DNA from: Desulfovibrio ferrophilus
GTDB taxonomy: Bacteria; Desulfobacterota; Desulfovibrionia; Desulfovibrionales; Desulfovibrionaceae
Assembly (NCBI RefSeq): GCF_003966735.1
Contig: NZ_AP017378.1
Coordinates: 3,306,905-3,370,904 of the forward strand
DNA: 64,000 nucleotides
Direction: 5' to 3'
In this document: piece after piece, positions 43,334-53,002 of the stretch
Layout of the letters: every line of letters starts with the position of its first letter
Position numbering within the stretch: position 1 is the stretch's first letter
Translations under genes and position numbers: made by a program
The notes under the pieces: generated by a model
What the model was told of the DNA's origin: nothing
Seen by the model: the letters and a program-made list of their open reading frames with translations, nothing else
Databases searched by the model: none

Positions 43334-44749
43334 ATGACTTCCGAAGAGACCTCCCGCCCTTACCGCACCATCTGGCGACTGGCCTGGCCCCAGGCGTTGA
43401 TGATGTTTTTCCATTTCTGGATCGGATTTGTGGATGTCTATGTGGCGGGCCTGATGAACCGCGAGGTTCAGGCCGCCTTGGGCTTGATCACTTCCTGCCT
43501 GTTCTTTTTGCTCATCATCGCCATTTCCGTGGCCAATGGATCGGTGGCGGCCATCAGCCAGTCTCTGGGAGCTGGACTGACTGCCCGAGCCCGCCGTTAT
43601 GTGGGCTTGTGTCTGGAGATTGGTGCCTTGGGCGGTCTGCTCTTTATGGTGGGCGGCGTGGCGGCCAAGGACCTGTTGCTGGCCGCCCTGCACGTGCCCA
43701 TGGAGATTCGGGGTATTACTGCCGAGTTTTTGGACGTCTATGCCCTGCTCTTGCCTTCGTATTATCTGTTGGTCATCACCAACGCCGTGTTCCGGGCGCG
43801 CAAGGAAGTGATGATTCCCACGGCCACCATGCTGGTCATCACCGTGGTCAACGCCCTGGCTGATTTCGGGCTGGGCTTGGGACTGTGGGGGTTGCCTCGT
43901 CTGGAACATCAGGGTCTGGCCTGGGCCACGTTCTGGTCCGTGAGTGCGGGTGCCCTTGTGAATCTGTTCATGCTGTGGCGCAAGGGCTTGCTGAACCGCA
44001 AAACGTTCCCCCCTTTGCGTTGGGTCCGTGCGGCCTTGCCCTATCTGATGAAGGTGGCTTGGCCCTCGGGGTTAATGCAGATTTTCTGGCAGACGGGATA
44101 TCTGGTGTTGTTCGCCATTGCCGCCAGCCTGCCCGTGAATAGCGTCAATGCCCTGGCAGGCATGACTGCTGGCCTGCGCATCGAAGCCATTCTGTTTCTG
44201 GCAGGATTCGCGTTCAATATGACGGCCTCGGTGCTGGTGGGGAACTACCTCGGGGCCGGGGAACCGGCTACAGCCAAGCGGTTCGGATATATGATCTGGG
44301 GCATCGGTGTGGTCTCCATCGGTCTGCTGACATTGGTGGTATGGCAATTTGTTGCCCCCATCGCCGCGCTCATGTCCACAGAGGTGGGGGTGCGGGTCCA
44401 GATCGAGAGCTATCTGTTCTATAATCTGCTGGCCATTCCATTTACCCTGACCAGCATGATTATTGGCGGAGCTCTGAACGGGGCCGGGGCCACTCTGTAC
44501 AATACCGCTGTGTTCGGCGTGACGGTGTGGTGTGTGCGTTTGCCGCTTGCCTGGTATCTGGGGCATGTGCTCATTGCCGAGGCTTCTGGAATCTGGATGG
44601 CCATGCTTTGTTCTCAGGCTGTACAGGCATTCCTGATACTGTGGGTTTATCAATTCAAGGACTGGTCGCGTTTTGGCATGATCCAGAAGCGAAACAAGGT
44701 TCAACCGCTGGTGGGGGTCGCGCCCGCCGGAGTGAATCTCAGAAAGTGA
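43334..44749 (+). CDS. MATE family efflux transporter
   Basis: A 471-residue inner-membrane protein with twelve helices in two repeated halves, typical of NorM/DinF-type MATE transporters. The start RTIWRLAWPQALMMFFHFWIGFVDVYVAGLM and the mid-region GLRIEAILFLAGFAFNMTASVLVGNYLG are conserved family segments. MATE pumps export cationic or organic compounds using a sodium or proton gradient. It is divergent from the MacB-type permease and four to seven bases upstream of a DUF2156 gene, with which it is probably co-transcribed. Confidence 0.92.
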   Translation: MTSEETSRPYRTIWRLAWPQALMMFFHFWIGFVDVYVAGLMNREVQAALGLITSCLFFLLIIAISVANGSVAAISQSLGAGLTARARRYVGLCLEIGALGGLLFMVGGVAAKDLLLAALHVPMEIRGITAEFLDVYALLLPSYYLLVITNAVFRARKEVMIPTATMLVITVVNALADFGLGLGLWGLPRLEHQGLAWATFWSVSAGALVNLFMLWRKGLLNRKTFPPLRWVRAALPYLMKVAWPSGLMQIFWQTGYLVLFAIAASLPVNSVNALAGMTAGLRIEAILFLAGFAFNMTASVLVGNYLGAGEPATAKRFGYMIWGIGVVSIGLLTLVVWQFVAPIAALMSTEVGVRVQIESYLFYNLLAIPFTLTSMIIGGALNGAGATLYNTAVFGVTVWCVRLPLAWYLGHVLIAEASGIWMAMLCSQAVQAFLILWVYQFKDWSRFGMIQKRNKVQPLVGVAPAGVNLRK

Positions 44750-44756
44750 GGAAATG

Positions 44757-45647
44757 ATGAGCACCTGCACTGGCGTTGATTTCAAGCCCATCTCTCTGGA
44801 TGGGCAGGACGAATATCTCAAACGGTTTGCCGAGTGTCCGCAGAAGGTCTCGGACTACAGCTTCACCAACATCTGGGGTTGGGCCGAGCATTACGGACTG
44901 GAATGGTTTTTTGGTGAATCACACGTCTGGCTCAGGCAGACTCGCCCCGAGGTTGTGTATTGGGCCCCTGTGGGGCCATGGAAAAATGTGCCCTGGGACC
45001 AATGCCCCACCTTGCCCAACTGCGGCCCGTTCACCCGGGTACCCGAGGAATTGGCACTGCTGTGGCAGGATTGCTTCGGTGATCGCCTGGAATTGACCGA
45101 GGCCCGCCAGCATTGGGACTATGTGTATTCCGTCCCGGAATTGACGGTGTTGTCCGGCAATCGTTTTCACAAGAAGAAGAATCTACTCAATCAGTTCAAG
45201 AAAAAGTATGACTACCACTACCATTCCATGACCCGTGATTGCGTGGAAGATGTGCTGGACATGCAGATGGACTGGTTCAACTGGCGTGATGCCGAATCGC
45301 GTGCCGTGCTTTCCGCTGAGAATACCGCTATCCAGCGCGTGTTGCAGAACTGGGATGATTTGCGCGGGGTGTTCGGCGGCGTGATCGAGGTGGATGGCTC
45401 CAAAGCTGCCTACACCGTGGGTGAACACCTCTGCGATAAGACTCTGGTGATCCATTTCGAGAAGGGAATAACCCACTACAAAGGTATTTATCAGGCCGTG
45501 AATCAGATGTTCCTGGAGGGCGAAGCCGAGGTCTATGAATTCGTGAACCGCGAGCAGGACCTGGGTGACCCGGGGCTGCGCAAGGCCAAGGAATCCTATC
45601 ATCCCGTCAAGTATCAGAAGAAGTTCGAAGTCGCTATTGCGTCCTGA
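44757..45647 (+). CDS. DUF2156 (phosphatidylglycerol lysyltransferase C-terminal-like) protein
   Basis: A 296-residue protein of the DUF2156 group, a pair of GNAT-like folds related to the catalytic part of MprF. Visible segments are SDYSFTNIWGWAEHYGLEW, DYVYSVPELTVLSGNRFHKKKNLLNQFKKKY, and the C-terminal VYEFVNREQDLGDPGLRKAKESYHPVKYQKKF, strongly conserved in this family. There is no membrane domain, unlike MprF. An aminoacyl-transfer role is possible but unproven. ATG 44757 is preferred to 44754 for ribosome spacing (GAGG five bases upstream). It is co-transcribed with the MATE pump. Confidence 0.82.
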   Translation: MSTCTGVDFKPISLDGQDEYLKRFAECPQKVSDYSFTNIWGWAEHYGLEWFFGESHVWLRQTRPEVVYWAPVGPWKNVPWDQCPTLPNCGPFTRVPEELALLWQDCFGDRLELTEARQHWDYVYSVPELTVLSGNRFHKKKNLLNQFKKKYDYHYHSMTRDCVEDVLDMQMDWFNWRDAESRAVLSAENTAIQRVLQNWDDLRGVFGGVIEVDGSKAAYTVGEHLCDKTLVIHFEKGITHYKGIYQAVNQMFLEGEAEVYEFVNREQDLGDPGLRKAKESYHPVKYQKKFEVAIAS

Positions 45648-45752: not shown

Positions 45753-46367
45753 TTAGCTCGCCTTGAGACGAGCCGTGAGCAGGTAGCCCAATTCATCATC
45801 CAGCAGCACGCCGGGCTCAAACCCTGCGTCGCGCAGCATGGCGCGGATCTCCGTAGGCTCGGGCATCAGGTCGTGCTCCACGGCAGTGCCTGCCTTGCGA
45901 TGGTGATCATTGATGGTTTCTGAATTGATGAAGTGATGAATGATCAACGATCCGCCTGGGCGCAAAGCCAAGGCCATGCAGCGCAGGGCCGAAGGTTGAT
46001 CCTCGATGTGCGGAAAGACCTGATGACAGAGTGCGACGTCGAAGCCGTCCGGTTCCAGGGGTTGCTCCTCCAGTGACCCCGTCAGGGCGGTGGCGTTGGG
46101 GATGTCGCGGAGCCGTTCCTGAGCCAGGCGGATCATTTCGGGGCTGATGTCCATGCCCAATACATGACCCTCAGGGCCGACCCTATTGGCGAGTTCAGCG
46201 GTCAATCGACCCGTGCCACAGCCGGGTTCCAGTACTCTGCATCCTGCAAGGGGACCGGTCTGCGCAAAGAGTCGTTCCAGCTTGGGAGCTTCTTCATGTC
46301 CGTAGTCGGCAGCGGCCCATGGGGCATTGGCCTGGGCATCGAAAAATCTGGTTTTGTCAGCGTACAT
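45753..46367 (-). CDS. Class I SAM-dependent methyltransferase, last gene of the metal-uptake cluster
   Basis: A 204-residue methyltransferase with motif I VLEPGCGTGRLTAELA (about 45-60), motif II VLGMDISPEMIRLAQ, and ALCHQVFPHIEDQPSALRCMALALRPGG. It resembles UbiE/Methyltransf_11 proteins; the methyl acceptor is unknown. Its start lies within the end of the permease gene, an 11-base overlap on the same strand, so it is translationally coupled to the ABC importer. This suggests it acts on the imported metal complex or its ligand, by inference. Confidence 0.8.
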   Translation of the reverse strand: MYADKTRFFDAQANAPWAAADYGHEEAPKLERLFAQTGPLAGCRVLEPGCGTGRLTAELANRVGPEGHVLGMDISPEMIRLAQERLRDIPNATALTGSLEEQPLEPDGFDVALCHQVFPHIEDQPSALRCMALALRPGGSLIIHHFINSETINDHHRKAGTAVEHDLMPEPTEIRAMLRDAGFEPGVLLDDELGYLLTARLKAS

Positions 46368-47256
46368 GGTTTCTCTCCGGTGCGATGGGTGAAGTGGTTT
46401 GGACTTCTCCCGAGAAGTTGAGTGAGAGCCGTTGACGGCGCGAAAGCCCCTTTTTTTTGGGGGAGAACAGGGTGCAGAGCACGAACAGAAGCGTGGAAAT
46501 CATGACGATGACCGCGCCCGAGGGAATGTCGAAGGCATAGGACGCCAACAGGCCGCCCCAGCAGGACACCACGCCAAACACTGCGGCCAGAATGAAGATG
46601 CGCTTGAGATCGTAGGAGAGTTGATAGGCCGCCGCCGCTGGATTGATGATCAGGCTGTAGATGAGCAGGCCACCGATACTGCGCAGTGACGCCGTGACTG
46701 TGGCTCCGGTAGCAATCAACATGGCGTAGTAGATTGCTGTGGCGGGAATTCCTGCGGCAAGGGCAACGCTGCGGTGACAGAGCACGGCCCTGACCTCCTT
46801 GAAGAAGAGCATCAGGGCTGCCAGCAGAATGATGGTGACTGCTCCCATGACCCACAGGTCAAGTTTACCCACGGTCAGGATACTGCCCCAGAACAGGTTC
46901 AGGGCTTTGGACTTGGGGCCGGGCATCAGGCCGATAAACAGAAAAGCCAGTCCGAGCATGGCCGAGAACACGATGCCCACTACGGTTTCCGGGGCAAAGT
47001 CCGTCCTGTCCGAAAGTGGGCCGATGAGTCCGGCGACGCCTAAACTGAAGACAAAGGCCATGGCCAGTCCGTCCGGCGAGCCCATGAGCATCCCCAGCAA
47101 GGCCCCGGCAAAGGCGGCGTGGGCCATGCACGTGCCGATGGCCGTGATGCGCATGGTCACGACCAGAACTCCGGTTATGGCGCAGGACACTCCGCCCAGC
47201 AGACCGGCCAGAAAGGCTTTTTGCATGAATCCATAGTGCAGAATCGAAAAATCCAT
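46357..47256 (-). CDS. znuB: Metal ABC transporter permease (ZnuB/MntB family)
   Basis: A 299-residue inner-membrane protein with about eight helices and family segments QKAFLAGLLGGVSCAITGVLVV, MAHAAFAGALLGM and SIGGLLIYSLIINPAAAAYQL. It is the channel subunit of a cluster A-I type importer for Zn2+ or Mn2+. The C-terminal ~35 residues extend past the last helix as a charged tail. It lies 12 bases after the ATPase gene and overlaps the following methyltransferase gene. The metal is inferred from the family and not proven. Confidence 0.88.
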   Translation of the reverse strand: MDFSILHYGFMQKAFLAGLLGGVSCAITGVLVVTMRITAIGTCMAHAAFAGALLGMLMGSPDGLAMAFVFSLGVAGLIGPLSDRTDFAPETVVGIVFSAMLGLAFLFIGLMPGPKSKALNLFWGSILTVGKLDLWVMGAVTIILLAALMLFFKEVRAVLCHRSVALAAGIPATAIYYAMLIATGATVTASLRSIGGLLIYSLIINPAAAAYQLSYDLKRIFILAAVFGVVSCWGGLLASYAFDIPSGAVIVMISTLLFVLCTLFSPKKKGLSRRQRLSLNFSGEVQTTSPIAPERNHVR

Positions 47257-47268
47257 CCGGGACTCCTG

Positions 47269-48102
47269 CTAGTAGCAGATATGTTTTCGCCCGTTGATCT
47301 CGGCGATGTGAATGTTCGTGCCGTACAGCTCGTTGAGCCGTGTTTCGTCCACGGCTTGTTCCGGTGGGCCTTCCCAGAGGAGTTGCCCGTTTTTCATGCA
47401 GGCGATGCGGTTGCAGATGTCGGGCAGGGTATTCAGGTCATGGGTCACGATCATGCTGGTCAGGGAAAACTTGAGGTGTAGCTTCTGCACCAGCCCCAGG
47501 ATTTCGCGCTGGGCCTGCCAGTCAAGAGAGGCTGTGGGTTCATCCAGCAGCAGGATGCGCGGGCGTTGCAACAGTGCTCGGGCAATGGCTACACGTTGCT
47601 GCTCTCCGCCGGACAGATGCCCCAAGGGGCGTTCGGCCAATGAACTCAGGCCCACCAGATGCATGAGTTCTTCGGTGCGCTGATGGAAGATAGGCGGCAC
47701 GGAGCGCAGCAGGCCCACAAGTCCATAGCAGCCTGTGAGGATGGATTCACGCACTGAAATGGGCAGCAGGGGGTCGATGTCCTGCTGTTGAGCCACATAG
47801 CCGATGCTCTTGCGTAATTCTCCTGCGGTTTTTGGAGTCACGCGTTGGCCCAGTGCCGTGACTGTTCCTCCCACCACCCGGCCCAACCCGTTGACCACGG
47901 TGAGCATGGTGGTTTTGCCTGCCCCGTTGGGGCCGATGACTCCCAGAAAATCTCCGTGGCGCAGGGAGATGTTTACCCCGCGCATGGCCACGTGCTGTCC
48001 GTAGGCCGCACTGACGTTGTCCAGGCGAATGGCCTCGTCTTGGGCCTTGTCCGGTTCAGCATGCGGAGAGTTCACTGCAATTGGGGTGATCTGCTTGGTC
48101 AT
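47269..48102 (-). CDS. znuC: Metal ABC transporter ATPase (ZnuC family)
   Basis: A 277-residue ATPase with Walker A GVIGPNGAGKTT, Q-loop GYVAQQQDIDPLLPISV, signature LSGGEQQRVAIARAL, Walker B ILLLDEPTASLD and switch His in VTHDLN. The VAQQQ.I...PISV stretch is characteristic of zinc/manganese/chelate importers. It has an N-terminal extension of about 25 residues before the ABC domain. Its ATGA start overlaps the binding-protein stop, showing coupling within the importer operon. Confidence 0.92.
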   Translation of the reverse strand: MTKQITPIAVNSPHAEPDKAQDEAIRLDNVSAAYGQHVAMRGVNISLRHGDFLGVIGPNGAGKTTMLTVVNGLGRVVGGTVTALGQRVTPKTAGELRKSIGYVAQQQDIDPLLPISVRESILTGCYGLVGLLRSVPPIFHQRTEELMHLVGLSSLAERPLGHLSGGEQQRVAIARALLQRPRILLLDEPTASLDWQAQREILGLVQKLHLKFSLTSMIVTHDLNTLPDICNRIACMKNGQLLWEGPPEQAVDETRLNELYGTNIHIAEINGRKHICY

Positions 48103-48941
48103 GAGTTGTATTCACTTCCTTGCAGGGCGTTGAGCAGGCGCTCGATATTGACTCTCAGGGCATCCTCCCATGTGTTGGTATCGGGAAAGCCTCCGGGAAA
48201 GTTGGAGAGCATGATGCGCCGTGCCGAAAGCTCTTCGGCCAACCCCCGGCCTCCGTCACCGCTTTGCAGATTGTCGATGACCAGAGTGGCTTTGCCGCTT
48301 TTGCCTGCGTCCACGACCCTGGCCATTTGCTCGGGATTCATGTCACCGGGGCGATAGAAGACCGTGGCCACGGGGAATCCTGCCCAGCGTGCAAGGCCTT
48401 CCTGCATCTGGGCACAGACCACGGGGTGCCTTTGGGCTCCGGCTTGATGCAATCGGAACAGGAGTTCCTGCTCCAGAGTGGTGATACGAGCCAAGCGTCG
48501 TTTGGCGGCGTTTTGAATGGCTTGATTTTGTTGCGGGGCAATCTCCCCGAGCCGTTGGGCCATGGCCCGGGTGTAGCGGGCATGGACCTGGGGCAGCATG
48601 GAGTTACCTGGTTCGGCCACGATTTCAACGTGCAATTGTGCATTGGCGGCGGCATCGATCAGGATACGCATGTTTTCCAAATCTTGTTGCCAGGGGTGTA
48701 AAAACAGGGCTTCGGCCTTGTTCAACAGAACCAGATCGGCGGGCCGCAGGTCATAGTGACCGGGGCAGGCTCCACCCGGAATGAGTGCTCTGACCTCGGC
48801 CTGAGGGCAGAGGTCGTGCAGGATGTCTGCAAGCATTGTGGTCCCTGCCAGCAGACGCAGGGGTTGGTCTTCAGCCTGCGCGGGCCTGGGGAGCATCAAC
48901 GATAGGCAGATCAGCAGGGCAGGGACAATGCGCATGATCAT
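48099..48941 (-). CDS. znuA: Metal ABC transporter substrate-binding protein (ZnuA-like, cluster A-I)
   Basis: A 280-residue periplasmic protein with a signal peptide (cleavage near AQAED, residues 21-25). It follows the ZnuA layout: RLLAGTTMLADILHDLC, a GGACPGHYDLRPADL loop with a probable metal-binding His, LFLHPWQQDLENM and a long linking helix. The classical third and fourth ligands are less clear: FYRPGDMNPEQ replaces a typical GHxD region, and no His-rich loop is present. The substrate may therefore be a metal chelate and not a bare ion. GGAG inside the upstream gene's end, eight bases before the ATG, indicates coupling. Confidence 0.78.
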   Translation of the reverse strand: MIMRIVPALLICLSLMLPRPAQAEDQPLRLLAGTTMLADILHDLCPQAEVRALIPGGACPGHYDLRPADLVLLNKAEALFLHPWQQDLENMRILIDAAANAQLHVEIVAEPGNSMLPQVHARYTRAMAQRLGEIAPQQNQAIQNAAKRRLARITTLEQELLFRLHQAGAQRHPVVCAQMQEGLARWAGFPVATVFYRPGDMNPEQMARVVDAGKSGKATLVIDNLQSGDGGRGLAEELSARRIMLSNFPGGFPDTNTWEDALRVNIERLLNALQGSEYNS

Positions 48942-48946
48942 TGTTC

Positions 48947-50032
48947 TTACTCCAATGGCGTTTGGCGTTTGCGTCCGATAATCAATTGGGAATCCAGCCG
49001 GTCGCCGATCTTGCCCAGACGGTTGGGGGCGAATTCGTGGACCCCGGCGATGCGCAGAATCTCGTAATGGCTGGTCAGATATTGCAGGACCTCTTCGTGG
49101 GACATGTCGTTTTTGAAACGATAGATGTTGGGGCCTTTATTCACTCCCGAAAAGCCGCGCATGGACCATTCCATATCCAGAAGCGGACTCTTGGTCCGTT
49201 CGCCACGGGCATAATAGGCGTGCTTGGTGATGAACAGGCCACCTGGGGCCAGTGCCGAATGGATTTTGTCCAGCAGTGCGCGGGTCTTGCCGCCTGGATT
49301 GTAGGACAGGAGGATGGCGTCGTAGCCATCGCCTATGGGGTCCGTGAATTGGTTGCCAGCTTGGAAGTTCACGCGTTTGCCATCGAATTTTTGGGCGTAG
49401 TGCTCCGCTGCCTCCTGCAGTCCCGGCAGGTCGAAGACAGTGGCCTGGAGCTTGGCGTTTTGCTGGCACAGGGCCACGGAATAGAGGCCGTGTCCGCCCC
49501 CCAGGTCGAGCAGGGTCCGAACGTTTTCGAATTCGGGCACCGAGCAGATGATGTCCGTGGTCTTTTGCAGTTCACCTGTCAGAGTTTCCGAGGCCAGGGC
49601 GTGGATGAACTCTCCTGCAAACCCATGCCCATTGCTGCCGTCTCCGGGGCCATTGATGAGCAGTTCTTCCAACTGCTCCCAGATGGAGATGCCGCCCCGG
49701 ACGCAGGACACCACGTTGCCCTGATAGAGCAGGGATGAACGGCGAAGAAAGGTCTGGGTTTGCTGGGTGTTGCGGTAGCCTTTGGGATCTTTTTCCAGAA
49801 AGTCCATTTCTTCCAGCAGGCGGCACAGGGCCAGGGTCATGGCCGGGTCGGTGTTCAGCTCCTGTGCCAACTGTGCGGCGGGTACCGCCTGCTCAAGATG
49901 CTCGAAGACTCCGATGTTCAGGGCGGCTTTGAGCGCCAAGAGGCTTTTGTAGCCGCGTTCGGCATCGTGGATGGTACGGTACAGTGTGCCTGCGTCCTGT
50001 GGGGATGGGATGAGATTTGGTTCAGTAGGCAT
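48947..50032 (-). CDS. O-methyltransferase family 2-like protein in the metal-uptake cluster
   Basis: A 361-residue SAM methyltransferase of the dimerising O-methyltransferase type. Residues ~20-100 form a winged-helix dimerisation domain (LLALKAALNIGVFEHLEQAVPAAQLAQELN); the catalytic domain has LLDLGGGHGLYSVALCQQN (motif I), VFDLPGLQEAAEHYA and LAPGGLFITKHAYY. Relatives include acetylserotonin and bacteriochlorophyll C20 methyltransferases, as well as enzymes of small-molecule synthesis. AGGA six bases before ATG 50032 sets the start. It lies between the TonB receptor and the ABC importer on the same strand. The acceptor is unknown. Confidence 0.82.
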   Translation of the reverse strand: MPTEPNLIPSPQDAGTLYRTIHDAERGYKSLLALKAALNIGVFEHLEQAVPAAQLAQELNTDPAMTLALCRLLEEMDFLEKDPKGYRNTQQTQTFLRRSSLLYQGNVVSCVRGGISIWEQLEELLINGPGDGSNGHGFAGEFIHALASETLTGELQKTTDIICSVPEFENVRTLLDLGGGHGLYSVALCQQNAKLQATVFDLPGLQEAAEHYAQKFDGKRVNFQAGNQFTDPIGDGYDAILLSYNPGGKTRALLDKIHSALAPGGLFITKHAYYARGERTKSPLLDMEWSMRGFSGVNKGPNIYRFKNDMSHEEVLQYLTSHYEILRIAGVHEFAPNRLGKIGDRLDSQLIIGRKRQTPLE

Positions 50033-50088
50033 GGTGTATCCTGTGATCGGGAAGCGCTGCCATGGTGGGCAGCGCTTCTCCAATGTGA

Positions 50089-52038
50089 TCAGAAGGTCAG
50101 TTTCACACCCACCATGCCGTTGGTGCCAGGCATGGGGTAGTTGGGCTTGTATTCGTAGTCTTCGTCGGTGATGTTCTGCACCGAGAGGTACAGTTCACCC
50201 TCGGCGTCCCAGTCGTCGAGGAAGAAGGTCCAACCGAGGCGGGCATTGACCAGGAAGTGGTCATCCACCTTCTCGGTATTGCTGGTGCCGGCTTTTCTGA
50301 CCTGTTTCAGGGCGTACATATCCGAGACATATTCGCAGTCCATGGAAAGGTTGAAGTCTTCCAGGAATTGCCAGTTGAAACCGCCACTGACTGTGGTCTC
50401 AGGCACATAAGGCATGTCGCCGGGTGTGGAATTTTGAATAGTTAGCCCGGTAAACAGGGACAGGTCCGGTGTGGGGGTCACGCTGAGCGAGGCCTCGAAG
50501 CCTTCGATTTCGAATTCCTCGGTGTTGGACCATGTGGGCGGGAACGGCGGAAGCGTGAACACATAGCGGTCCTGGCCGTCGTCATGGAAGTAGGTCAAAT
50601 CGATCTTGAACAGGTCCTGGAAGGTATGGCTGATGCCAACTTCGACGTGTTCGACTTCTTCGGGTTCGATGTCCTGCCATTGGGCCGTGGGGAACAGGAT
50701 TACCACGTCATGCCCGGGGTAGGAGATGCCCTTGGACATGGAGGCATGGACCTCGGTGCTGCCGTATCCGGCTACGAGGCCGGCGTGGGGCGCGGTGCGG
50801 CTGTCGAATTTGTTGTGTTCGTACTGACGCACCCCCACGGAGGGAATGATGTGCCAGCCGTCGGTTTCGCCGATGAGATAACTGGTCGAGGCATAGGGCA
50901 TGGTCAGGGCGAAGCTGGGGGCCAGAACAGAGTCGTCGGTGCCGTTGTCGTAGGTGTAGCGAATATTGCCGTCCCACCACTGCTGGTCCAGGCCAACGGT
51001 TATTTCAAAGTCGTCGGTGATGTTGAATTGTTCTCTGGCCTTGAGGCCCCAGAACCAGAAGTCGTTGAGGCAGTCGTCGTCGGCGCCGGCTTGATCGCGC
51101 CAGTAGCCTTCACCGGCATTGGCAAAGAATTTGATTTCGCCGTGGGCCATGTCGAAGTCGTTGCTGAAGGTCAGCGAGGCCAGACGCATGCGGGTTTCGT
51201 AAGAGCCTTCCTTGGCTGCGGAGTTGTCGTCCGGTCCGGGGTCGCTGGCCTCATTGTCTACATTCAGGGCAAAGAGGCGGACATCCCAGTACTGGTTGAG
51301 CTGCACTCCGAGGTTACCGAACAGGCTGAACTGACGGCCATCGGCATCTTCCCTGTGTCCGTCGGAGCGGCGGAAGCCTTGGCCCATATAATAATCAAAT
51401 TCACCGATACGCCCACCGTGCTCCAGGGATTGGCTGATGGTGCCATAACTGCCTGCCGAGGCTTCGATGGTGGTGGTGAAATCGTCGCCTCGCATGCGCT
51501 TGGGCACGATATTGATGATGGACAGGGCATCACCGAAACGGTTGGGCTGTGGCCCTTTGAGGACCTCGATGGATTCGATGGGATCAACAGGGAGCAGGTC
51601 AATGAGGGGGTGGTTCCAGACTCCCATGTAAGCCGGAACGCCGTCGATAAATGTCTTGATTTCCGAACCGGGGCGACTGGAACCCATGCCGCGGATGAAT
51701 ACGGCCCCGCCTTCACCGCCGCCAAAGGCGCCCACGGGGTTGTGACGAGAAATGGTAACGCCCGGAGTGCGCCGCAGGGCGGAACTGAGATCCAACGCTC
51801 CCAGCTTGTCCATCTGCTCTTCGCTGACCACTGTGGAGGTTGCTCCATAGCGGTCGATTTCGTTCCCCTGGATGATGGGGGTGGCAATGACTTCGAGTTC
51901 TTCCAGCTCGACACTTTGGGTCGTGTTAGGAGCTGCGTCGGGCTGTGTGTCAGACTTCGGGCCGTCCGCATGGGCGGTGGTGGTCAGGAGCAGGGCCGCA
52001 AAAACGAGGATCAGGGCGGCCATCCGGTAAGATTTCAT
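50089..52038 (-). CDS. TonB-dependent outer-membrane receptor
   Basis: A 649-residue receptor: signal peptide (about 1-24, ending TTTAHA), a likely TonB box in VELEELEVIATPI, a plug domain (about 55-170, SALRRTPGVTISRHNPVGAFGG), then a 22-strand-type barrel ending in MVGVKLTF with the terminal aromatic needed for insertion. It imports a large or chelated ligand across the outer membrane. The plug contains IRGMGSSRPGSEIKTFIDGVPAYMG, common in siderophore and corrinoid receptors. It heads the methyltransferase/ABC operon. ATG 52038 is preferred over nearby starts for ribosome spacing. Confidence 0.9.
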   Translation of the reverse strand: MKSYRMAALILVFAALLLTTTAHADGPKSDTQPDAAPNTTQSVELEELEVIATPIIQGNEIDRYGATSTVVSEEQMDKLGALDLSSALRRTPGVTISRHNPVGAFGGGEGGAVFIRGMGSSRPGSEIKTFIDGVPAYMGVWNHPLIDLLPVDPIESIEVLKGPQPNRFGDALSIINIVPKRMRGDDFTTTIEASAGSYGTISQSLEHGGRIGEFDYYMGQGFRRSDGHREDADGRQFSLFGNLGVQLNQYWDVRLFALNVDNEASDPGPDDNSAAKEGSYETRMRLASLTFSNDFDMAHGEIKFFANAGEGYWRDQAGADDDCLNDFWFWGLKAREQFNITDDFEITVGLDQQWWDGNIRYTYDNGTDDSVLAPSFALTMPYASTSYLIGETDGWHIIPSVGVRQYEHNKFDSRTAPHAGLVAGYGSTEVHASMSKGISYPGHDVVILFPTAQWQDIEPEEVEHVEVGISHTFQDLFKIDLTYFHDDGQDRYVFTLPPFPPTWSNTEEFEIEGFEASLSVTPTPDLSLFTGLTIQNSTPGDMPYVPETTVSGGFNWQFLEDFNLSMDCEYVSDMYALKQVRKAGTSNTEKVDDHFLVNARLGWTFFLDDWDAEGELYLSVQNITDEDYEYKPNYPMPGTNGMVGVKLTF

Positions 52039-52083
52039 CATAAACCCCACTTAACTGGTTTGATTTGCTCGTAAACAACGTCC

Positions 52084-52143
52084 CGTGCGAGTAGCACGAA
52101 AAAATAATATTTACAACGGCACGGACTATCATCTAGTTATAAT
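52084..52143. promoter_or_regulatory. Divergent promoter region of receptor and TonB genes
   Basis: CGTGC (52084-52088) and GCACG (52094-52098) form a short inverted repeat in the gap between the divergent genes. TATAAT (52138-52143) is a perfect -10 for the TonB-like gene, but no good -35 is at 16-18 bases, which suggests an activator or a different sigma factor. No cobalamin riboswitch is seen. Confidence 0.45.
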
Positions 52144-52171
52144 GACTATGAAGTGGGTAGACGAAGTGATT

Positions 52172-53002
52172 ATGTGCCACAGTAGCGGCTCAGGTGTACT
52201 GCTTTCCAGGATTGCCCCTGTCTTGTCTTTGACCCTGCATGCCGTTCTTGTGTTGGCCTGCTTCTTTGTGGCCAATCTGAGCACACGGGCCCAGACTCTG
52301 GTTTGTCCTGTCGCCTATGAGGTTGCGCTGGTGACCTTGGAGGGTGCCGGGGGCAGTGGTCATTCAGAAGCTACTGCCGTTGCCGTTGAGCGGGTGGAAT
52401 CGCCCTTGCCGCGCCGAACTGTCCAACTGCAAGAAAAACCGAAAGTAGCACCATCCACGAAGCCCCTTGCGCAGAAGGAATCGAAATCAGACCCCTCTAC
52501 CCGTGTGATTCCGCGAGAAATCGCAGCTGCAAAGAGTGAACAGCAGAACAGTGATGAAGTAGCTGCTGCTCATGAGGACGGAGTCCACTCGGAGCATGAA
52601 GCATCCACTGCGTTGTCTAACGGCGGAGTTTCCACAGGAACCGGAACTGACGCCACGAGCCCGCAGGGACTGCCTTTGGGCATTGGCAATGGCTTGGGCC
52701 GTGGTGAGCTTGCGGGGGGCATAGGGCAGGTGGATGTCCTGCCAAGGATTACGCGCAAGATTGAACCGCGCTATCCGGCTGGTGCGCGCGAGGGTGGCGT
52801 GACCGGAAGTGTGAGCGTGAAGTTTCTGGTGGATCGGAATGGGCGGGTGCGCGAGCCGCAGGTGCTGTTTGCCGATCCTCAAGGTGTGTTCGAACAGAGT
52901 GCGCTCAGTGCCGTGCGCAGATGGCGATTCAAGGCAGCGAAAAAGGATGGGCAGCGAGTGGCAACCTGGGTGGTGTTACCCATCCGGTTCAGTCTTGAAT
53001 AA
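52172..53002 (+). CDS. tonB: TonB-like energy transducer
   Basis: A ~276-residue protein with an N-terminal membrane helix (about 12-33, SLTLHAVLVLACFFVANL), a long Ala/Ser/Pro/Glu/Lys periplasmic spacer and a C-terminal TonB domain (about 195-275: PRYPAGAREGGVTGSVSVKFLVDRNGRV through WRFKAAKKDGQRVATWVVLPI). It transmits proton-gradient energy to outer-membrane receptors; the divergent receptor is the obvious partner. exbB and exbD are not in the window. The start is uncertain: 52142 and 52148 are alternatives, but a TATAAT overlapping 52142 favours 52172. Confidence 0.8.
   Translation: MCHSSGSGVLLSRIAPVLSLTLHAVLVLACFFVANLSTRAQTLVCPVAYEVALVTLEGAGGSGHSEATAVAVERVESPLPRRTVQLQEKPKVAPSTKPLAQKESKSDPSTRVIPREIAAAKSEQQNSDEVAAAHEDGVHSEHEASTALSNGGVSTGTGTDATSPQGLPLGIGNGLGRGELAGGIGQVDVLPRITRKIEPRYPAGAREGGVTGSVSVKFLVDRNGRVREPQVLFADPQGVFEQSALSAVRRWRFKAAKKDGQRVATWVVLPIRFSLE

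Follow-up and report, generated by a model that had tools for sequence, protein, structure and literature searches.

A conserved gene cluster of Desulfovibrio ferrophilus with a TonB receptor, an ABC-3 importer and a methyltransferase: a candidate NikR-controlled system for nickel-chelate uptake

Introduction

Importers of cluster A-I, such as ZnuABC and AztABC, consist of a binding protein of the ZnuA fold, an ABC-3 family permease and an ATPase. The binding protein FpvC of Pseudomonas aeruginosa takes part in the release of iron from pyoverdine. Excerpts of the literature on nickel describe NikABCDE and NikMNQO as importers under the control of the repressor NikR (PMC2667541, PMC545781), and they describe NikR-linked nickel uptake by a TonB-dependent transporter together with an ATP-binding cassette (ABC) importer, namely NiuBDE with FrpB4 in Helicobacter pylori and NikH with CeuE/FecDE in H. 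mustelae (PMC5140060). In this study we analyzed a gene cluster of Desulfovibrio ferrophilus (family Desulfovibrionaceae, phylum Desulfobacterota), in which a TonB-dependent outer-membrane receptor, a ZnuA-fold binding protein, an ATPase, an ABC-3 permease and two methyltransferases, MT1 and MT2, are encoded side by side. The cluster lies in a stretch of 64,000 nucleotides of contig NZ_AP017378.1 (positions 3,306,905 to 3,370,904); we call this whole stretch the window, and plain coordinates below are positions in it.

We think, with a probability of roughly 0.6, that the cluster serves the NikR-controlled uptake of a nickel chelate and that MT2 acts on the chelate or on its ligand. Judging from the sequence evidence, nickel is the most likely metal.

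The cluster resembles the Helicobacter systems, so far as these are described in the excerpts, in its probable link to NikR, its TonB-dependent transporter and its ABC importer. It differs from them in that their importers are of the FecBCD type, whereas the permease of the window belongs to the ABC-3 family (PF00950) and not to the FecCD type; in addition, the excerpted text of PMC5140060 names no methyltransferase for Helicobacter. NikABCDE has a binding protein of the peptide/nickel type, two permeases and two ATPases, whereas the window has one ZnuA-type protein, one ABC-3 permease and one ATPase. NikMNQO, which is of the energy-coupling type, has a CbiM/NikM component, but none is found among the proteins of the cluster; the CbiM/NikM of this genome is encoded elsewhere (C1:572355) with its own NikR-type site. 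The textbook nickel importers are not known to have a methyl-adding enzyme, and the system in the window has one. The cluster is like ZnuABC and AztABC in binding-protein fold, permease and ATPase, but it lacks the zinc ligands, the His-rich loop and an exact Zur box, and it has a methyltransferase partner. No recognised description of the gene set was found in the open-licence PMC papers searched, among the matches listed. Its parts are of known kinds; what is new, as far as we searched, is that a methyltransferase is fixed beside an importer of cluster A-I, probably under NikR, and that this importer uses a binding protein with no metal site.

Results

Organization of the cluster. The open reading frames (ORFs) and Pfam matches gave six genes on the minus strand and a divergent tonB gene. 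The receptor gene (50089..52041; PF07715 Plug, 74 bits) is followed after 56 bases by MT1 (48947..50032), an O-methyltransferase-like protein with a dimerisation domain (PF00891, 46.9 bits; PF08100, 42.3 bits). After 5 bases comes the gene of the binding protein (48099..48941; PF01297, 61.6 bits), which overlaps that of the ATPase (47269..48102; PF00005, 113 bits) by 4 bases (48099-48102). The permease gene (46357..47256; PF00950, 179 bits) begins 12 bases further on and overlaps by 11 bases (46357-46367) that of MT2 (45753..46367; PF13847, 88 bits), a class I methyltransferase dependent on S-adenosylmethionine (SAM). The divergent gene on the plus strand (longest ORF 52085..53002; PF03544, 77 bits) encodes the energy-transducing protein TonB, and it is likewise placed in locus L075. 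A sequence-only reading of this stretch, made before our analysis, had described one such one-strand cluster with overlaps of 4 and 11 bases and a divergent TonB-like gene, and the ORFs and Pfam matches agree with it. The true starts of the receptor (ATG 52041; longest ORF from GTG 52050) and of MT1 (ATG 50032) likely differ from those of the longest ORFs.

Conservation of the gene set. A search of 199 genomes of the family with the binding protein gave a match in 34 genomes. A clear orthologue (E <= 3.7e-34) was present in 23 genomes, and the other 11 matches had E >= 2.4e-10. Receptor, MT2, binding protein, ATPase and permease stood together on the same strand in 22 of the 23 neighbourhoods, and the 23rd (L095) is truncated by its contig end immediately upstream of the binding protein. 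The receptor adjoined the importer in all 22 complete clusters. The gene set is thus a conserved system and not a chance arrangement.

A scan of contigs with the binding-protein alignment gave 32 loci, of which 9 matched loci already found in the family and 23 were others; the same scan with MT1 alone as query found no relative. MT2 was present in 22 of these 23 other loci (it is cut by the contig end in L109 and L110), and L121 is cut within the ATPase. In 395 genomes of the phylum, the binding-protein search gave 17 strong matches: 4 in the family, one on the contig of L129, and 12 new ones, of which 9 have MT2 and 3 are cut (L213, L215, L219). Altogether we count 58 distinct clusters; 5 are cut by contigs, and all of the 53 testable ones have MT2 linked to the importer. 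The carriers are labelled Desulfovibrio, Desulfobulbaceae, Syntrophorhabdaceae, Hydrogenedentota, Endomicrobiales, Planctomycetota, Brocadiaceae, Deferribacteraceae, a betaproteobacterium and UBP13. Since metagenome bins make up the majority, part of these labels may be wrong. The distances of MT2 and of the binding protein were closely correlated (Mantel r 0.83 over 44 loci, 0 of 5000 permutations).

A distant receptor takes the place of the window-type one in L113 and L124, and no window-type receptor was seen in the stretches covered of L103, L104, L107, L109, L110, L112, L117, L118 and L125; several of these loci are cut. The automatic choice of receptor starts was rough in some loci. L230 and L232 (f8 genomes; G319, G140) carry a diverged version, in which the receptor gene is divergent, the ZnuA-like protein is a distant one, and MT2, ATPase and permease are present; G319 and G140 are not among the NikR-positive genomes.

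The binding protein has lost the zinc ligands. We aligned 50 cluster binding proteins and judged the ligand columns against one canonical ZnuA, that of the window genome itself. The three zinc histidines of ZnuA were missing in all 50. The first column holds Gly in 47 proteins and Ser in 3, the second is a gap in all 50, and the third holds Ser, Ala, Asp, Asn or Cys, never His; the column of the final acidic ligand holds Asn (45), Ser (4) or Gly (1). The His-rich loop is lacking too: the whole window protein has 7 His, as compared with 15 in the genome's canonical ZnuA. The sequence-only reading had noted the missing loop, correctly but too modestly, since the metal ligands are missing as well. 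Conserved instead are Cys59, Pro60, Asn224, Gln226 and Pro249 (50 of 50) and Arg197 (48 of 50).

The model of the protein (predicted local distance difference test score, pLDDT, 93) has the ZnuA/TroA fold and matches AztC (VIA Z 22.6, root-mean-square deviation 2.8 over 237 residues). The best PDB matches of the binding-protein profile were entries of FpvC (6r6k, a mutant, 2.4e-14; 6ru4, 1.3e-12; VIA Z 20.8). In 6ru4 and 6r3z the first ligand position is His, as opposed to Gly or Ser in the cluster proteins. The window genome also encodes a separate canonical znuABC, whose ZnuA has the His-rich loop and is preceded by a perfect copy of the published Zur box (ATGCAAC-N3-GTTGCAT). This box, scored as the exact pattern only, has no match at 51901-52300 of the window. 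By its sequence, the cluster binding protein is not a zinc protein. Since zinc ligands are lacking in 50 of 50 binding proteins and a TonB receptor accompanies 22 of 22 complete family clusters, we infer that the cargo is a chelate and not a naked ion, and the chelate substrate proposed by the sequence-only reading gains support.

NikR-type sites in the promoters. The excerpted Table 4 of PMC545781 gives the delta-proteobacterial NikR site as GTGTTAC-N13/14-GTAACAC, in reversed orientation too. We built a half-site matrix from this table and scored pairs at spacings of 13 and 14 in any orientation; the use of direct pairs is an extension made here. A site passed when it reached the 95th percentile of 464 control stretches, which include coding sequence (7.86). 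The promoter set omits duplicates (L087, L092, L115, L116, L119, L120, L225; L087 and L092 are near-copies of L085) as well as L097, loci with no window-type receptor match and upstream stretches of fewer than 200 bases, so that L214 and L222 are absent.

Where the genome has NikR, 30 of 38 cluster promoters had a passing NikR-type pair, as compared with 5% of controls. Such a pair passed in none of 4 window-type clusters in NikR-less genomes that are at least 93% complete. Of 8 further MT2 loci in NikR-less genomes, FecBCD-type or other, 2 had a passing pair; these 8 were the only ones to give promoters among 20 loci fetched for MT2 relatives lacking a window-type cluster. The 38 promoters together with L089, which lies in a 69% complete genome with no NikR match (G558) and has a passing site (9.8), differed from the 464 control stretches with p 6.6e-22. 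In a subset of 33 NikR-bearing promoters, 25 passed, against 2 of 12 NikR-less loci (Fisher p 5.6e-4). Half-sites numbered 99 in 36 promoters, as compared with 32.3 expected from shuffles, and the spacing of 13 was the richest in strong pairs (7 of 20 loci with at least 14 bits; other spacings, at most 4).

The gene of NikR itself adjoins the cluster in 8 of 58 cases (L113, L124, L129, L216, L217, L218, L221, L224), and 7 of these 8 clusters have a passing site. In L124 a perfect GTGTTAC-N13-GTAACAC precedes an operon of nikR and receptor; in L224 the order is nikR, ExbB, TonB, receptor, importer, MT2. NikR was found in 50 of 58 cluster genomes (22 of 23 in the family, 22 of 23 contig genomes, 6 of 12 further genomes of the phylum), including that of the window (G000:C1:1305702, E 1.4e-33). 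Within the phylum it occurs in 183 of 395 genomes, and in 7 of 13 non-family genomes with a strong binding-protein match. Such a phylogenetic profile is weak evidence; the argument for nickel is therefore carried by the adjacency of nikR and by the promoter sites.

Among the neighbours, a [NiFe]-hydrogenase is encoded 3.6 kb downstream of L085 on the same strand, and the large-subunit motif also occurs near L087, L092 and L094, from the same genus as L085. The genes downstream of L118 were considered as a group-4 [NiFe] hydrogenase and rejected, because Pfam gave antiporter and NADHdh membrane subunits only and the stretch covered there contains no large-subunit motif. Genes for a DUF1007 protein and a NicO-like nickel transporter lie directly downstream of the nikR-led cluster of L124 (L124:6672-8152).

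MT2 is the core methyltransferase. The model of MT2 has a pLDDT of 97. Pro119, His120, His145, His156 and Val163 are invariant in 45 of 45 sequences, and Asp166 occurs in 42. By the usual topology of this class, His120 and His145 lie at or just past the ends of strands 4 and 5 and are predicted to face the SAM site. MT2 as the arsenite methyltransferase ArsM was rejected, since it scored 52.8 bits with NF008823 against a cut-off of 263.

MT1 was present in only 5 of 22 family clusters (window, L075, L077, L078, L080). Another second methyltransferase, MT3, was present in 7 (L081, L083, L084, L086, L088, L089, L090), and the remaining 10 gave no match to either. In L084 MT2 and MT3 are fused in one open frame (L084:6951-8327, 458 codons from the chosen start), which suggests that the two work together. 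Apart from the ATPase, the clusters have no enzyme in common but MT2. Thus MT2 is a core gene, and the second methyltransferase varies, with MT1 being accessory. The sequence-only reading had counted both methyltransferases as parts of the system and had named their absence from the equivalent operon of relatives as a refutation; such absence was seen for MT1 and not for MT2. Nickel as the probable metal, the link to NikR, the exchange of MT1 and MT3, and the FecBCD and FmdE versions described below go beyond that reading.

Discussion

We propose the following scheme. NikR would control the cluster, and the TonB receptor would carry a nickel chelate across the outer membrane. The ZnuA-fold protein, with its site for bare metal lost, would hold the chelate in the periplasm, and the ABC-3 permease and the ATPase would move it into the cytoplasm. 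There MT2, with MT1 or MT3 in some lineages, may methylate the imported ligand. Methylation would most likely free the nickel and stop the ligand from recapturing it. Because the methylation of a coordinating group would be an irreversible block, this proposal would account for the constant presence of MT2.

Several observations weigh against this scheme. Eight of the 58 cluster genomes gave no NikR match (G007, G093, G159, G299, G337, G374, G558 and that of L107). L224, with nikR adjacent, has no passing site before the receptor (3.1) or before nikR (7.3). The pairs of half-sites in direct repeat, which are the commonest form here, are absent from the published arrangements, and all four hydrogenase neighbours come from one genus. 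Of the 38 NikR-bearing promoters 8 fail, and that of the window is one of them. Its best scored pair reached 7.7, just below the limit of 7.86, and is located away from the variant conserved there. This variant, a putative NikR-type operator GTTGTAA-N13-GTGCTAC (52091..52117, minus strand) overlapping a -10-like TATTAT, has one near-consensus half-site, GTGCTAC, one base off the published GTGTTAC, at 13 bases from the weak half-site GTTGTAA. It matches once in the window against 0.04 expected. Among six close genomes, GTTGYAW-N13-GTGYTAC has a single match in each of G000, G396, G407, G444 and G464, always before the receptor, and in G454 it precedes the receptor with one mismatch; but this pattern was defined after seeing these sequences, so that only its uniqueness is informative. 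The window promoter has 2 half-sites as compared with 1.55 expected from shuffles, and the strict inverted pattern has no match in the window genome, where GTGACAC-N13-GTGTAAT stands just 5' of the probable start of nikM. The case for NikR is weak at the promoter of the window itself. The longest tonB ORF would have the conserved operator within its opening codons, and the true start of tonB is therefore probably one of the later ATG codons at 52142, 52148 or 52172.

A further point comes from the relatives of MT2. These (E <= 1e-28) occur in 61 of 395 genomes of the phylum, of which 16 have a window-type cluster, and we took MT2 loci from 20 of the 45 others. Parts of a FecBCD-type importer lie in 12 of these 20 loci (L263, L264, L266, L267, L268, L270, L271, L275, L276, L278, L279, L281), and the receptor family of the window lies near MT2 in L266, L268, L270-L276 and L279. 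All 12 FecBCD-type loci are in genomes without NikR; MT2 as such, therefore, need not mean nickel. The cluster might then take up a metal-tetrapyrrole or another chelate with a metal such as cobalt in place of nickel or beside it, with NikR as the solution of one lineage and MT2 modifying the macrocycle or chelator. The companions of MT2 agree with this, since FmdE is near it in six of the fetched loci (L266, L269, L270, L271, L278, L279) and a tetrapyrrole-methylase-family protein (PF00590) in five (L263, L264, L267, L278, L279). But no PF00590-like match was found in the window or in the other window-type loci searched, the window-type promoters carry NikR-type sites and eight clusters adjoin nikR, and no riboswitch matched at the Rfam gathering score in the window, in 7 window-type loci or in 7 FecBCD-type loci. 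We consider this reading unlikely, though worth keeping in view.

The PF00590 proteins include those at L278:14166-15001, L279:5520-6506 and L263:2436-3362. That of L278 has an apparent signal peptide at its start, which is odd for a SAM enzyme. FmdE also adjoins a second copy of MT2 near a complete cluster (L123:10436-11668). In G277 a FecBCD-type importer has two genes beside it (L034:6132-8043), one for an MT1-like protein and one for a 'heavy-metal chelation' protein of DUF364/DUF4213.

One FecBCD version does have NikR. The operon of G182 reads nikR-tonB-exbB-exbD-receptor-FecB-FecCD-ATPase-FmdE and ends in a relative of MT1; a passing NikR-type site (12.8) precedes its nikR. The receptor frame (L031:1774-3975) opens with a CooT domain (PF10133, 56 bits), and CooT, which represents an accessory family of CO dehydrogenase, is a nickel protein of that enzyme. 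Methyltransferases of two families thus accompany two types of importer, and this speaks more for an action on the cargo than for one on a single transporter.

The methyltransferases could also be biosynthetic, that is, MT2 and MT1 could finish a secreted metallophore that is taken up again by the receptor and the importer. Operons of metallophores often combine biosynthesis and uptake. However, no shared enzyme for making a scaffold and no exporter was seen in the loci whose ORFs were read, the other flanks having been searched with the cluster's own proteins only. Because no other shared enzyme was seen in these loci, we regard a biosynthetic role as improbable. A protein of the system as the target of MT2, or a regulatory role, is conceivable in so far as class I methyltransferases have many targets, but MT2 is kept with two importer types, and their binding proteins fall into separate Pfam families (PF01297, and PF01497 for the query used); we give this reading very little credence. 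A plain importer of zinc or manganese, which the methyltransferase genes adjoin by chance, would fit the ZnuA/AztC fold and the zinc/manganese type of permease and ATPase, but it is largely contradicted, and we reject it, in view of the zinc histidines lost in all 50 binding proteins, the separate znuABC with its Zur box, and MT2 in 53 of 53 testable clusters.

We also speculate on a more specific cargo, namely a nickel tetrapyrrole such as coenzyme F430 of methanogens or its breakdown products. MT2 and its partners might modify the macrocycle or its carboxylates and so free the nickel, which would be a nickel counterpart of haem scavenging. We hold this to be doubtful. Compatible with it are the conserved Cys, Asn, Gln and Arg that replace the metal site and would suit an organic ligand, rumen and gut records among the carriers, and the tetrapyrrole-methylase-like and FmdE companions of the FecBCD versions.

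If uptake of a nickel chelate is correct, many anaerobes would obtain nickel by way of a chelate that needs a chemical change inside the cell, which would point to a so far undescribed carrier of nickel in sulfidic environments. A widespread family of methyltransferases, now annotated merely as generic, would also gain a function, and FmdE would be linked to the uptake of metal chelates. ABC-3 importers annotated for zinc may carry other cargo, and the telltale is the loss of ligands in the binding protein.

Other features of the window

Riboswitch control of the cluster was rejected, because Rfam gave no match at the gathering score in the window and the 14 other loci mentioned above. The gap between the genes of receptor and MT1 contains an RNA hairpin with a stem of 11 bp (50051..50078, minus strand); the fold of 50030-50095 has -30.2 kcal/mol (z -5.98). 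This hairpin could give the receptor and the importer different levels of expression. Beyond MT2, genes for a MATE transporter and a protein with an LPG_synthase_C domain (43334-45647) are convergent to the cluster.

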